NCBI RefSeq assembly: GCF_014635825.1
Contig: NZ_BMDO01000007.1
Coordinates: 124,001-188,000 of the forward strand
Length of the DNA: 64,000 nucleotides
DNA from: Mucilaginibacter galii
GTDB taxonomy: Bacteria; Bacteroidota; Bacteroidia; Sphingobacteriales; Sphingobacteriaceae
Reading direction: 5' to 3'
Shown: positions 34,944 to 63,356 of the stretch, one piece after another
How the letters are laid out: the number at the start of each line of letters is the position of its first letter
Numbering within the stretch: the first letter of the stretch is position 1
Notes under the pieces: generated by a model
Told to the model about the DNA's origin: nothing
Databases searched by the model: none
The model's input: only the letters and a program-made list of their open reading frames with translations
Program-made: the position numbers and the translations under genes

Positions 34944-34958
34944 GTGTATTTTTTACAT
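34944..34958. promoter_or_regulatory. Operator-like palindrome upstream of GlcNAc-kinase homologue 1
   Basis: GTGTATTTTTTACAT matches the palindrome found at 36820 and 63342 in 13 of 15 positions. It lies 66-80 nt before the ATG at 35024. A -7-like box TACTTTTA (one mismatch) begins at 34990, 31 nt from the operator edge. The regulator is inferred, not shown. Confidence 0.5.
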
Positions 34959-35023
34959 CAAATTGTTTTTTTTAAAAGCAAGTAAATCCTACTTTTAACC
35001 CAAACAAATTATAAAGTAAGCCT

Positions 35024-35884
35024 ATGAAATTAATTGCCGACGGCGGCTCAACTAAAACCAACTGGTGTTTAGTAAATGATGAGGGTAAAAAAGTATACTT
35101 TAATACTGAAGGTTATAATCCATATTTTGTAAGTAAGGAATACATCATAGAGTCTTTAAACAATAATCTGCCCGAAGATCTTGACCGCGCACACCTTACC
35201 GAAGTAAATTATTATGGTGCTGGTTGCTCAACCGCCGAAAAACGCAAAATAGTTCAGGAAGCGATGAGCATTGTGTTTACTAATGCGAAAGTTAATATAG
35301 GTCATGATTTGTTGGCAGCCGCGCGTGCATTATTAGGACATAGCGAAGGTTTTGCTGCAATTTTAGGAACAGGTACTAATACCTGCATCTATGATGGAAA
35401 AGATGTACTCCATAATATAGACTCTGGCGCGTATATATTAGGCGACGAAGGCAGTGGTTGTTATATTGGTAAAAAGTTATTGGTCGATTACCTCCGCGGC
35501 TACATGCCGGAAGCCGTACGTAAGAATTTCTGGGAAACTTATCACCTAACTCCCGATGATGTTAACGAGCAGGTTTACTCGCAACCTCTGGCCAACCGTT
35601 TTTGTGCTGGCTTTAGCAAATTCGTGTATGATAACAACGTTCACCTCGAATATACACGTAACTTGGTGAAGACTTCATTTGAAGATTTTTTCCGCAACCT
35701 GGTAACCCATTATCCTAACTACAAAAACTATTCATTCAATTGTATTGGTTCTGTTGGCTATAACTTCAGAAACGTATTGGAAGAAGTGGTTACCGAAAAT
35801 GGCATGAAAATGGGTACCATTATTCGCTCGCCTATAGATAACCTTGTAAAATACCACTTAGAACTTGCACCAAGCCAGTTATAA
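35024..35884 (+). CDS. BadF-type N-acetylglucosamine kinase homologue 1
   Basis: The 286-residue ASKHA-fold kinase has the phosphate-1 motif DGGSTKT (D6-T12), the phosphate-2 region LGTGTNTCIYDG near residues 114-125, and the DEGSGCYIGK loop near residues 138-147. All expected ATP-binding elements are intact, so it is likely to be active. Family members phosphorylate GlcNAc or related amino sugars. It has an operator-like palindrome upstream and ends at a strong bidirectional hairpin terminator. A second copy lies 1 kb downstream. Confidence 0.85.
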   Translation: MKLIADGGSTKTNWCLVNDEGKKVYFNTEGYNPYFVSKEYIIESLNNNLPEDLDRAHLTEVNYYGAGCSTAEKRKIVQEAMSIVFTNAKVNIGHDLLAAARALLGHSEGFAAILGTGTNTCIYDGKDVLHNIDSGAYILGDEGSGCYIGKKLLVDYLRGYMPEAVRKNFWETYHLTPDDVNEQVYSQPLANRFCAGFSKFVYDNNVHLEYTRNLVKTSFEDFFRNLVTHYPNYKNYSFNCIGSVGYNFRNVLEEVVTENGMKMGTIIRSPIDNLVKYHLELAPSQL

Positions 35885-35891
35885 GCAACAG

Positions 35892-35942
35892 ACTATAAAA
35901 GAAAAGCGCTTTGACAAAATCAAAGCGCTTTTCTTTTATAGT
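35892..35942. terminator. Bidirectional terminator with perfect 23-bp arms
   Basis: The arms 35892-35914 and 35920-35942 are exact complements with a 5-nt loop. They include an AAAAGAAAAG/CTTTTCTTTT flank and a GCGC core, so termination works for both the kinase and the Nudix gene. Confidence 0.9.
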
Positions 35943-35967
35943 ATTATCGATATTGTGGTGATCGACT

Positions 35968-36657
35968 TTAAACATCAACACCCAGTTCGTTTTGAAATAT
36001 CTTGCTGTATTTACGCCTGTCAAATTTATATAGCTTTGCAGCCCTGAACGATACATTTTTCTGTTTCTCATCCAGTTCTTTCAAAAAGCCATAACTCAGC
36101 ATCTTTTTCCTAAAGTTACGTTTATCTAACTTCTTATTTAATATGGCCTCATAAAGTTGCTGAAGCTGGGTAAGTGTAAATTTTTCGGGAAGTAATTCAT
36201 AAGCAATAGGTTGATAACTCAGCCTGCGACGCAATTTATTAAAACCTGTTTTAAAAATTTCAGTATGATCAAATGCCAGTTTAGGCAAATCATTAACGGT
36301 GTGCCACAAAGCTTTTTTTGCTAACTGACCAGGCTTTAATTCCTTTTGACTATCGATGCGTATCAATGCATAATAAGCAACGGTAATAATGCGCCCCCGG
36401 GGGTGACGGTGCACATCTCCAAACGTATGAAATTGCTCCATATGCAAATCATCAAGGCCGGTTAGCTCATGTAAAATACGTTCTGCTGCCTCTTCTATAC
36501 CCTCATCGTTTTCTACGAGGTTACCCGGTAAGGCCGGCCAGTCTTTAAAAGGCTCATCATTCCGCTCAATTAGCAAGATCTTTAATTCGCCGGCCTCAAA
36601 ACCGAAGATCACGCAATCGATAGAAAATTCAGACTCAAATTTAACCAGTTGTTCCAA
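35968..36657 (-). CDS. NrtR-like Nudix-type transcriptional regulator
   Basis: The 229-residue protein has an N-terminal Nudix domain (residues 8-140) and a C-terminal winged-helix domain (about residues 160-225; LTQLQQLYEAILNKKLDKRNF), the fusion typical of NrtR/AraR-type regulators. The Nudix box from G45 has E52 and R60, but the REuxEExGu segment reads RILHELTGL, with I61 and L65 in place of two catalytic Glu. It is therefore probably a ligand-sensing, not hydrolysing, protein. Start is TTG at 36657, the only in-frame start. It is divergent from the kinase2-gapA operon and shares its upstream region, which holds an operator-like palindrome. Confidence 0.88.
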   Translation of the reverse strand: MEQLVKFESEFSIDCVIFGFEAGELKILLIERNDEPFKDWPALPGNLVENDEGIEEAAERILHELTGLDDLHMEQFHTFGDVHRHPRGRIITVAYYALIRIDSQKELKPGQLAKKALWHTVNDLPKLAFDHTEIFKTGFNKLRRRLSYQPIAYELLPEKFTLTQLQQLYEAILNKKLDKRNFRKKMLSYGFLKELDEKQKNVSFRAAKLYKFDRRKYSKIFQNELGVDV

Positions 36658-36819
36658 GACTCCGTTTATAAAGGTTTAAATGATATTTCTTTAGTGTACA
36701 GGTGAAGTAAATACTTGTTAAACCTGCAAATGCAAGTATACATTTTTAAACATAAATCGATACAATTTTGTAAAAATTGACGCCTAAAACAGAGGCTTGT
36801 AACCCCGAAAAATACACTG

Positions 36820-36834
36820 GTGTAATTTTTACAC
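36820..36834. promoter_or_regulatory. Operator-like palindrome upstream of kinase2-gapA
   Basis: GTGTAATTTTTACAC has perfect 6-bp arms (GTGTAA/TTACAC) around TTT. The same 15-mer occurs at 63342. A further half-site TACAC overlaps it at 36813-36817. It lies 41 nt from the -7 box and between the Nudix regulator and its putative target operon. Confidence 0.6.
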
Positions 36835-36875
36835 AATAGCTACGCTACTTTAGGGTAATAAGCCACCAAAGTTGT

Positions 36876-36883
36876 TATATTTG
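36876..36883 (+). promoter_or_regulatory. Bacteroidota -7 promoter element for kinase2-gapA
   Basis: TATATTTG is a full TAnnTTTG match, 26 nt before the ATG at 36910. Confidence 0.55.
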
Positions 36884-36909: not shown

Positions 36910-37758
36910 ATGGTTGCAGTTATTTATAGCGGATCTAATTATGCAGACTGGCGTTTGGCCGATAAAGGCCGCACGGTGGCCTCGTTTAAAACCAGCAGTA
37001 TAAACCCGTTTTTTAATAACGAGAAGCACATTTTGCAACTGCTTAATAAGAATATAAACCTTATACACCACGCCGAAGAAATTAAACGCATTTACTTTTT
37101 TGGTGCGGGGGTTTTAAATAAGAATTTAAAAGAAGCGGTGAGCAATAGCTTATCATCATTTTTTAAATATGCTAAGGTACAGGTAGATCATGATATGCTT
37201 GGCGCCGCAATTGCCTGTTGTAAAAGTGAGCCAGGTATTGTGTGTATTTGCGGTAGCGGTTCTAACGCAGCCTGGTTCGATGGAAAAAAAGTCAAGCCTA
37301 ACAATTATGGCTTAGGATATATTTTAGCGGATGAAGGTTCGGGTAACTGGCTGGGTAAACAGTTGATTAAAGCTTACCTAAACGAAACCCTGCCCGACGC
37401 TTTGCACAAAAAATTCATTAAGCGCTACGATGCTGACCGTAAAACGCTTTTAGATAAAGTTTACCGTCAAAGACAGCCGGCATTGTACTTGAGTTCGTTG
37501 GCCGATTTTTATAAAGATAATCAGGATAATGAATTTCTGCAAAACATCATTATAAGCGGCTTTGAGCAGATGATTGATACTTATGTGGTGCCCTTAAAAG
37601 AACAATACCCCGAGGCCGGTATACACATGGCTGGGTCTGTGGCAGCAGGTTTTAAACCATACCTTGAAAAAGCCGCAGCAAATTCGGGCTTGGAAATTGC
37701 TTACATACTAAAAGAACCTATCAATAATTTATTAACGTATTATTCTAATAAAAATTAA
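36910..37758 (+). CDS. BadF-type GlcNAc-kinase homologue 2 with degenerate phosphate-1 motif
   Basis: The 282-residue paralogue aligns with homologue 1 along its length and keeps GSGSNAAWFDG (near residues 115-125) and DEGSGNWLGK (near residues 143-152). At the N-terminus, however, the position of DGGSTKT reads YSGSNYA (Y6-A12), with Asp to Tyr, Thr to Asn and Lys to Tyr. These residues normally coordinate Mg-ATP, so activity is doubtful. It is 6 nt upstream of gapA and co-transcribed with it, which suggests a sensory or regulatory role by inference. Base composition is normal, so this is not an obvious pseudogene. Confidence 0.82.
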   Translation: MVAVIYSGSNYADWRLADKGRTVASFKTSSINPFFNNEKHILQLLNKNINLIHHAEEIKRIYFFGAGVLNKNLKEAVSNSLSSFFKYAKVQVDHDMLGAAIACCKSEPGIVCICGSGSNAAWFDGKKVKPNNYGLGYILADEGSGNWLGKQLIKAYLNETLPDALHKKFIKRYDADRKTLLDKVYRQRQPALYLSSLADFYKDNQDNEFLQNIIISGFEQMIDTYVVPLKEQYPEAGIHMAGSVAAGFKPYLEKAAANSGLEIAYILKEPINNLLTYYSNKN

Positions 37759-38760
<1,002 letters not shown>

Positions 38761-62181: not shown

Positions 62182-63261
62182 TTATAACTTACTGTTCACA
62201 TCCAAACAGTTCAAATCGGCAAATGCCTGGGTTAAACGCTTAACAAAGGTTTCTTCGCCTTTACGTAACCAAACACGCGGATCATAGTATTTTTTGTTCG
62301 GAGAATCTTCGCCCTCAGGGCTTCCGATCTGCGCTTGCAGGTAACCTTCTTTAGATTTATAGAAATCTTTAATACCTTCCCAAAATGCCCATTGCATATC
62401 GGTATCAATATTCATTTTAATGGCACCGTAAGAAATAGCCTCACGAATTTCTTCCTGACTTGAACCCGAACCACCATGGAATACGAAATTTATCGGTTTC
62501 TCTTCGGTAATATTGTGTTTTTGCTTTAAATGCTCTTGTGAGTTGTGTAAAATAACCGGTTGTAATTTTACGTTGCCCGGTTTATAAACACCATGCACGT
62601 TACCAAAAGCCGCAGCTACGGTAAAACGCGGACTAACTGCCGACAGATGCTCGTAAGCATAAGCAACTTCTTCGGGCTGGGTGTATAAGCGTGAGCTGTC
62701 AACATCGCTGTTATCAACGCCGTCTTCTTCGCCACCGGTAACACCTAACTCAATTTCAATGGTCATGCCCATTTTGGCCATACGCTCTAAGTACTTAGCC
62801 GATATTTCGATATTTTCTTCGATAGGCTCTTCAGAAAGATCGAGCATGTGCGAAGAGAATAAAGGCTTGCCAGTTTCAGCAAAAAATTTCTCACCATGAT
62901 CTAACAGGCCGTCGATCCAAGGTAACAGTTTTTTGGCAGCATGGTCGGTATGTAAAATAACCGCAACACCGTAGTGCTCGGCTAACAAATGCACGTGCTT
63001 GGCAGCCGATACACCACCCAAAATGCAGGCTTGCAATTGCGAATTATCTAATGATCTACCGGCGTAAAATTGCGCACCACCGTTAGACAGTTGGATAATA
63101 ACGGGCGAATTAACCGCCTTGGCTGTTTCCATTACCGCATTAATTGAGTTGGTGCCAATTACGTTCACTGCAGGTAAAGCAAACTGGTGCTTCTTAGCAG
63201 CTTCGAACATTTCCTGCACCTGATCGCCGTGCAAAACGCCTTTATAACTTTTTAAATCCAT
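62182..63261 (-). CDS. fbaA: Class II fructose-bisphosphate aldolase
   Basis: From ATG 63261 (MDLKSYKGVLHG) the protein has 359 residues. The frame extends 25 codons further, but those residues are unrelated to the family and overlap the promoter. The zinc-binding region HTDHAAKKLL (near residues 106-115) and FHGGSGSSQEE (near residues 264-274) are canonical for class II aldolases. It cleaves fructose-1,6-bisphosphate in glycolysis. An operator-like palindrome shared with the gapA operon lies 81-95 nt upstream. Confidence 0.95.
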   Translation of the reverse strand: MDLKSYKGVLHGDQVQEMFEAAKKHQFALPAVNVIGTNSINAVMETAKAVNSPVIIQLSNGGAQFYAGRSLDNSQLQACILGGVSAAKHVHLLAEHYGVAVILHTDHAAKKLLPWIDGLLDHGEKFFAETGKPLFSSHMLDLSEEPIEENIEISAKYLERMAKMGMTIEIELGVTGGEEDGVDNSDVDSSRLYTQPEEVAYAYEHLSAVSPRFTVAAAFGNVHGVYKPGNVKLQPVILHNSQEHLKQKHNITEEKPINFVFHGGSGSSQEEIREAISYGAIKMNIDTDMQWAFWEGIKDFYKSKEGYLQAQIGSPEGEDSPNKKYYDPRVWLRKGEETFVKRLTQAFADLNCLDVNSKL

Positions 63262-63341: not shown

Positions 63342-63356
63342 GTGTAATTTTTACAC
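63342..63356. promoter_or_regulatory. Operator-like palindrome upstream of fbaA (and accD)
   Basis: GTGTAATTTTTACAC is identical to the palindrome upstream of kinase2-gapA. It lies 81 nt from the fbaA start and 95 nt from the accD start, between the divergent genes. Confidence 0.6.

Follow-up and report, generated by a model that had tools for sequence, protein, structure and literature searches.

The locus studied here raises the question of which protein reads a palindrome that recurs ahead of sugar kinase and glycolytic genes of Mucilaginibacter galii, and to what effect. We addressed it computationally in the window, the whole 64-kb stretch of DNA under analysis, and in the corresponding loci of relatives. 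Two exact copies of the palindrome GTGTAATTTTTACAC lie at 36820-36834 and 63342-63356, and GTGTATTTTTTACAT at 34944-34958 is a degenerate copy with two mismatches (13/15), in agreement with the preliminary description of this DNA. The putative operator at 36820 precedes kinase2-gapA, with its edge 41 nt upstream of the predicted -7 box TATATTTG (36876-36883, plus strand, no mismatch), a box of a type that is also seen in loci L021-L024. The putative degenerate operator precedes kinase1, its edge 31 nt upstream of the predicted -7 box TACTTTTA (34990-34997, plus strand, one mismatch), while the copy at 63342 precedes fbaA on the minus strand, 51 nt from the predicted -7 box TACATTCG (63290-63283, minus strand, one mismatch). 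The spacings of 31, 41 and 51 nt claimed earlier had thus been measured correctly, two of the boxes carrying one mismatch each. Since the site at 63342 is situated between fbaA and the divergent accD, accD may share it. The palindrome is unusual because of its two exact copies in the window and not because of its count at up to three mismatches, which is unremarkable (7 matches against 5.05 expected from shuffles). In the whole genome of 4.86 Mb, GTGTAANNNTTACAC occurs exactly in four places, two of them inside the window, and with up to two mismatches 278 times, compared with 204 for the reversed control.

The gene content points to sugar metabolism. A Nudix and winged-helix regulator of the NrtR/AraR family is encoded at 35968-36657 on the minus strand (PF21906 1.5e-28, PF19368 AraR_C 5.6e-16, PF00293 1e-13). 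It directly flanks only the site at 36820; the one at 34944 is separated from it by kinase1, so that the regulator gene is not, as had been stated, beside two of the sites. Kinase1 (35024-35884, plus strand) is a BadF-type sugar kinase, with PF01869 just below the cut-off and the GlcNAc kinase 8oqk as nearest solved structure (2.4e-67). Kinase2 (36910-37758, plus strand) is likewise of the BadF type, with PF01869 below the cut-off, and its nearest solved structures are 8oqw (2.4e-49, named ATPase) and 8ow9 (named putative MurNAc kinase). It is followed by gapA, encoding glyceraldehyde-3-phosphate dehydrogenase (37765-38760, plus strand, TIGR01534 above cut-off), and the class II fructose-bisphosphate aldolase gene fbaA occupies 62182-63261 on the minus strand (TIGR01520 above cut-off, ATG at 63261). 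The presence of two kinases nearest to GlcNAc and putative MurNAc kinases in a glycolytic regulon hints at a link to amino sugars or peptidoglycan recycling.

The clearest evidence for a function of the palindrome comes from its position in relatives. Our locus set (n=110) comprised the best 80 of 422 confirmed named loci and 30 loci taken from 61 sampled genomes of the family, 58 of which had a Nudix match and 52 a match of at least 53% identity. In 100 of these 110 loci, the window locus included, the motif GTGT-N7-ACAC occurs, within 400 nt, in the interval that separates the Nudix gene from the gene divergent to it. That divergent gene is usually pfkA, with kinase2 and gapA behind it. Among the 99 loci that have both pfkA and an exact site, the -7 box of pfkA starts exactly 2 nt past the palindrome in 97 and 1 nt past it in the other two, many of these loci being close relatives and not independent events. 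Promoters of B. thetaiotaomicron are described as having two elements, the first centred on -7 and the second close to -33 (PMC7366714); by that description, the 2-nt position therefore means that the palindrome fills the spacer of the pfkA promoter. We also examined a further 30 pfkA loci. The regulator is alongside in 22 of them, two from genomes that the 99 loci had already included (G072 and G075), and 16 of these 22 show the 2-nt arrangement; the six exceptions are L414 and L415, without a good site, and L417-L420, with a weaker site about 30 nt from the box.

The class sample yielded a match in 54 of 119 genomes. Of the 26 loci that belong to families of the class other than this one, six have the exact palindrome, the Nudix gene standing next to pfkA in three of these six (L378, L379 and L386); the tree does not firmly join these three to the window clade. 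In three loci from other families (L365, L370 and L371), the Nudix gene is preceded by a tandem pair of palindromes spaced by about 50 nt, recalling tandem AraR sites.

The protein itself looks like a sensor that reads DNA in the manner of BtAraR. Both PF00293 and PF21906 score above cut-off, as expected of the NrtR/AraR family, and the best solved relative is BtAraR (5bs6, 2e-54). Seven DNA-reading residues of BtAraR (D178, K179, R180, N181, R183, K184 and R205) are identical in 113/113 rows of our alignment, which counts the window protein twice, whereas the wing residue K204 is replaced by Y or F. The contact residues, K204 excepted, and the GTGT-N7-ACAC operator are thus of the AraR type. 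Read by hand, the Nudix catalytic box is impaired, with RILHEL in place of REUXEE, and the protein is therefore probably a sensor and not an enzyme. The sugar-contacting residues R34, R86 and H131 of BtAraR are retained in all 113 rows, but the remainder of the pocket differs in all or nearly all of them, F36 being mostly E/D, G48 mostly Y/N and G89 mostly Q. Because of these three changes the effector is probably not L-arabinose; a different sugar or a metabolite of glycolysis is the more probable candidate. The pocket of the window protein and of L021-L024 is altered further (Y48 to N/D, Q89 to R/S), single changes of this kind being found outside the clade as well. In the tree the window protein falls within a family clade of 15 rows (support 99/96).

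Phylogenetic footprints, identical recognition residues and AraR-like operator geometry agree, and for this reason we consider it very likely that the palindrome serves as operator for the Nudix-winged-helix protein encoded next to it, which would be a conserved glycolysis regulator of the NrtR/AraR family. The proposal of a shared operator, of a regulon of glycolysis and amino-sugar genes, and of the Nudix protein as its reader is supported by these comparisons. The genome holds three PF21906 proteins, however, and the sites might be read mainly by one of the other two, an AraR-like copy on contig C1 or a copy on C3 resembling the NAD-type NrtR. The C1 copy (1077250-1078018; L019, L391) groups with BtAraR (100/98, flagged as a possible long-branch join), adjoins a ribulokinase-like gene (by eye) and has GTGTTAATGTAACAC in its upstream region; the C3 copy (330451-331163; L222) has a more intact Nudix box, and behind it come GTGTATTTAAAACAC and a gene that resembles nadM (by eye), which suggests an NAD-type NrtR that would read nearly the same DNA. 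With a GTGT-N7-ACAC site near each and similar recognition helices (DKRNFSRK, DRRNFRKK), the paralogues could share sites with the window protein. Yet GTGTTAATGTAACAC and GTGTATTTAAAACAC differ somewhat from the glycolytic sites, and the pfkA and kinase2 sites adjoin the window-type orthologue, for which 52 of the 61 family genomes have a match of at least 53% identity, so that we regard reading by a paralogue as improbable. Other Nudix paralogues of the genus (L260, L282 and L298) are divergent to GH3-like glycosidase genes (by eye), with a variant palindrome in between.

If the window protein is the reader, how far does its regulon extend? The preliminary description had proposed a genome-wide scan for further sites before glycolytic genes. 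We built a matrix from 29 distinct Nudix-locus sites, leaving out the locus of the own genome (that of the window), and scanned 250-300 nt upstream of target genes and 200 nt upstream of controls, every counted target match lying within 200 nt. Control upstreams reached a score of 12 in 1/268 cases and of 15 in 0/268. Compared with these, fba has a site scoring at least 15 in 7 of the 28 genus genomes with a readable start (Fisher 3e-8), eno one scoring at least 12 in 8/22 (2e-9) and pgk one scoring at least 15 in 3/22 (4e-4), values that overstate the significance because the genomes are related. The fba set consisted of 30 loci, from which L124 and L128 were dropped for want of a readable start, and starts were placed by the MDLK/KGVL peptide. 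No eno site was found in the eight rows from other families among the 30 eno loci, and in the genus all eight sites lie downstream of the -7 box, the distance from the first base of the box to that of the site being 24-27 nt. Upstream of kinase1, GTGT-N7-ACA(A/C/T) precedes a box in 65 of 92 cases, in 54 with a spacing of exactly 11 nt and in the window clade with one of 31 or 33 nt; matrix scores are mostly below 12 here, and 9/92 reach that value.

In the own genome, where the search was made by pattern, pgk has a site scoring 18.9 at 38 nt before its box, a second pfkA (pfkA2) one scoring 17.4 at 10 nt, overlapping the -33 region, and eno a weak one scoring 8.0 at 42 nt, all three boxes having been read by eye. 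Further glycolytic sites were thus found both in relatives (fba, eno, pgk) and in the own genome (pgk, pfkA2), and the regulon appears larger than first proposed, with eno and pgk carrying sites in part of the genus. Its breadth is limited, the fba, eno and pgk sites each being found in a minority of genus genomes. Two further sites of the own genome stand apart from these: a third top-scoring copy (C8:43772-43786; L004) between an AraJ-like MFS transporter gene and a maltose-acetyltransferase-like gene, for both of which the best family matches are below cut-off, and GTGTAAAAAAAACAC (C7:278214-278228; L224) between glycogen-debranching-enzyme-like and xylulokinase-like genes (by eye).

These counts also bear on whether the palindromes are chance or generic AT-rich sequences without function. 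The loosely matching copies in the window are as many as expected, and the looser motif GTGTWN5WACAC has no genome-wide excess in the own genome (22 against 19 in the reversed control), with 6 of 20 inspected sites inside coding frames and 3/22 before glycolytic units (kinase2-gapA, fba and pfkA2). Enrichment is hence seen upstream of glycolytic genes relative to the 268 controls but not for the loose motif. Against chance stand the fixed position in about 100 loci, the single control at a score of 12 or more, and an AT-rich genus pattern that occurs 229+258 times in 41 genus genomes compared with 40+40 for its reversed control, palindromic matches being counted on both strands. Some of these matches, among those listed for instance L260, L282 and L298, belong to Nudix paralogues and were therefore not counted as glycolytic. 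We consider chance very improbable overall, and hold it to be excluded for the interval between pfkA and the Nudix gene.

A conserved operator does not by itself reveal the sign of regulation. The three window sites had been taken to indicate an activator that contacts RNA polymerase from one helical face, at upstream sites spaced by whole turns. In the own genome all six sites indeed lie upstream of their boxes, at 10, 31, 38, 41, 42 and 51 nt (boxes by eye), and the centres of five of the six are near -50 to -70, positions that suit upstream activation. With the best period taken from 10-11, the p value for phasing is 0.051 in these six sites and 0.021 in the three first described; ten strong sites yield 0.027, a set of 14 events across relatives 0.013 and one of 17 events 0.008, in each case with predicted -7 boxes that were selected by eye with the site positions known. 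The sites at 98, 121 and 144 nt are poor fits, however, and in a set of 15 distances to which the 2-nt pfkA site contributes, p is 0.13 at a period of 10.5, though 0.003 at 10.0. The spacing numbers stand, but in view of the exceptions and of the manual choice of boxes the phasing is only suggestive.

The claim of an activator, on the other hand, is not established. The pfkA site, 2 nt from the -7 box in 97/99 loci, and the eno site, downstream of the box in 8/22 genomes, occupy repressor positions, and they therefore argue for repression at pfkA and eno, which we deem probable. NrtR proteins are, moreover, described as repressors, and BtAraR is reported to release DNA on L-arabinose, with its operon rising (PMC4666351). 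Activation from the upstream sites in the window lineage appears rather doubtful by comparison.

Loci that have lost pfkA or the regulator offer a further view of the system. The pfkA gene is absent from the locus in the own genome, L021-L024, G032 and G002. Two pfkA paralogues, 55% and 53% identical to the locus type, are all that the own genome retains; in G002 the kinase2 site, at 121 nt, is weak (11.9), and kinase1 and fba have none. The regulator-loss cases number three genomes only. In G081 (L401) no Nudix match was found, and the pfkA site has one ruined half while the -7 box is still 2 nt away, so that decay following loss of the regulator is possible; in G083 (85% complete) neither regulator nor site was found; and in G092 no regulator was detected and a weak site is kept, as it is in relatives with a diverged Nudix protein. 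A scenario in which the lineage was rewired would have the regulator move, when pfkA was lost from the locus, from repression at the promoter core (the pfkA spacer, downstream at eno) to helically phased action from upstream on kinase1, kinase2-gapA, fbaA, pgk and eno. That action may be activating, and changes in the ligand pocket would have accompanied the move. We regard this scenario as rather unlikely.

Altogether, we propose a conserved regulator whose binding, sign and effector we infer from sequence, conservation and geometry. Its dimer would read GTGT-N7-ACAC as BtAraR does, and its catalytically degenerate Nudix domain would sense a sugar or glycolytic metabolite distinct from L-arabinose. 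At most sampled Sphingobacteriaceae loci the regulator gene is divergent to pfkA-kinase2-gapA, and the single site in the pfkA spacer would most likely serve repression; in part of the genus eno would be subject to the same protein through a site immediately downstream of its promoter. The window lineage has lost the pfkA of the locus; there kinase1, kinase2-gapA, fbaA and pgk have putative upstream operators, eno has a weak one, and at the second pfkA the putative operator overlaps the -33 region. If this is true, a candidate main regulator of glycolysis can be named for the Sphingobacteriaceae, NrtR-type regulators extend from NAD and pentoses into central metabolism, and the relocation of an operator following loss of its target gene becomes a natural experiment that can be tested.

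How much of this is already known from related systems? Our full-text search of open-licence papers found no glycolysis regulator from the NrtR/AraR family, and the available part of the B. thetaiotaomicron regulon paper names AraR and XylR as NrtR-family sugar regulators and no glycolytic one (PMC3878776). Family, operator and fold are familiar from AraR, and the predicted glycolytic regulon would be new as far as the searched open-licence literature goes. BtAraR (BT0354; PDB 5bs6, 5dd4, 5ddg and 5deq) is the NrtR-family L-arabinose regulator of Bacteroides, and its description gives a 27-bp co-crystal DNA that carries GTGT, seven bases and ACAC, together with AraR sites proven by EMSA, a geometry identical to that of the window operator (PMC4666351). 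The window protein further resembles BtAraR in domain order, in the base-reading residues of the recognition helix, in the degenerate Nudix box and in R34, R86 and H131. It differs in that its sites are found at glycolytic and not at arabinose genes, in the changed F36, G48, G89 and K204, and in the tree, where it groups in a separate clade, apart from the AraR subgroup.

With NrtR, exemplified by the ADP-ribose-responsive NAD-metabolism repressor SoNrtR of Shewanella, it shares the Nudix and winged-helix domains and a match to 3gz5 at 4.5e-22, 3gz5 and 3gz6 being structures that we take to be SoNrtR. Unlike NrtR, its sites adjoin glycolytic genes and, among the targets found, not those of NAD biosynthesis, a nadM-like gene adjoining the C3 paralogue instead; the ADP-ribose-responsive NrtR equivalog NF050029 matches with 152.9 bits, under its curated cut-off of 400. 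In its mode of action, finally, the putative regulator would recall Cra/FruR, CggR and CcpA, which are regulators of glycolysis: one protein serving several glycolytic promoters through a mixture of upstream and promoter-core sites. These belong to unrelated protein families, however, and the likeness is one of function and not of homology.
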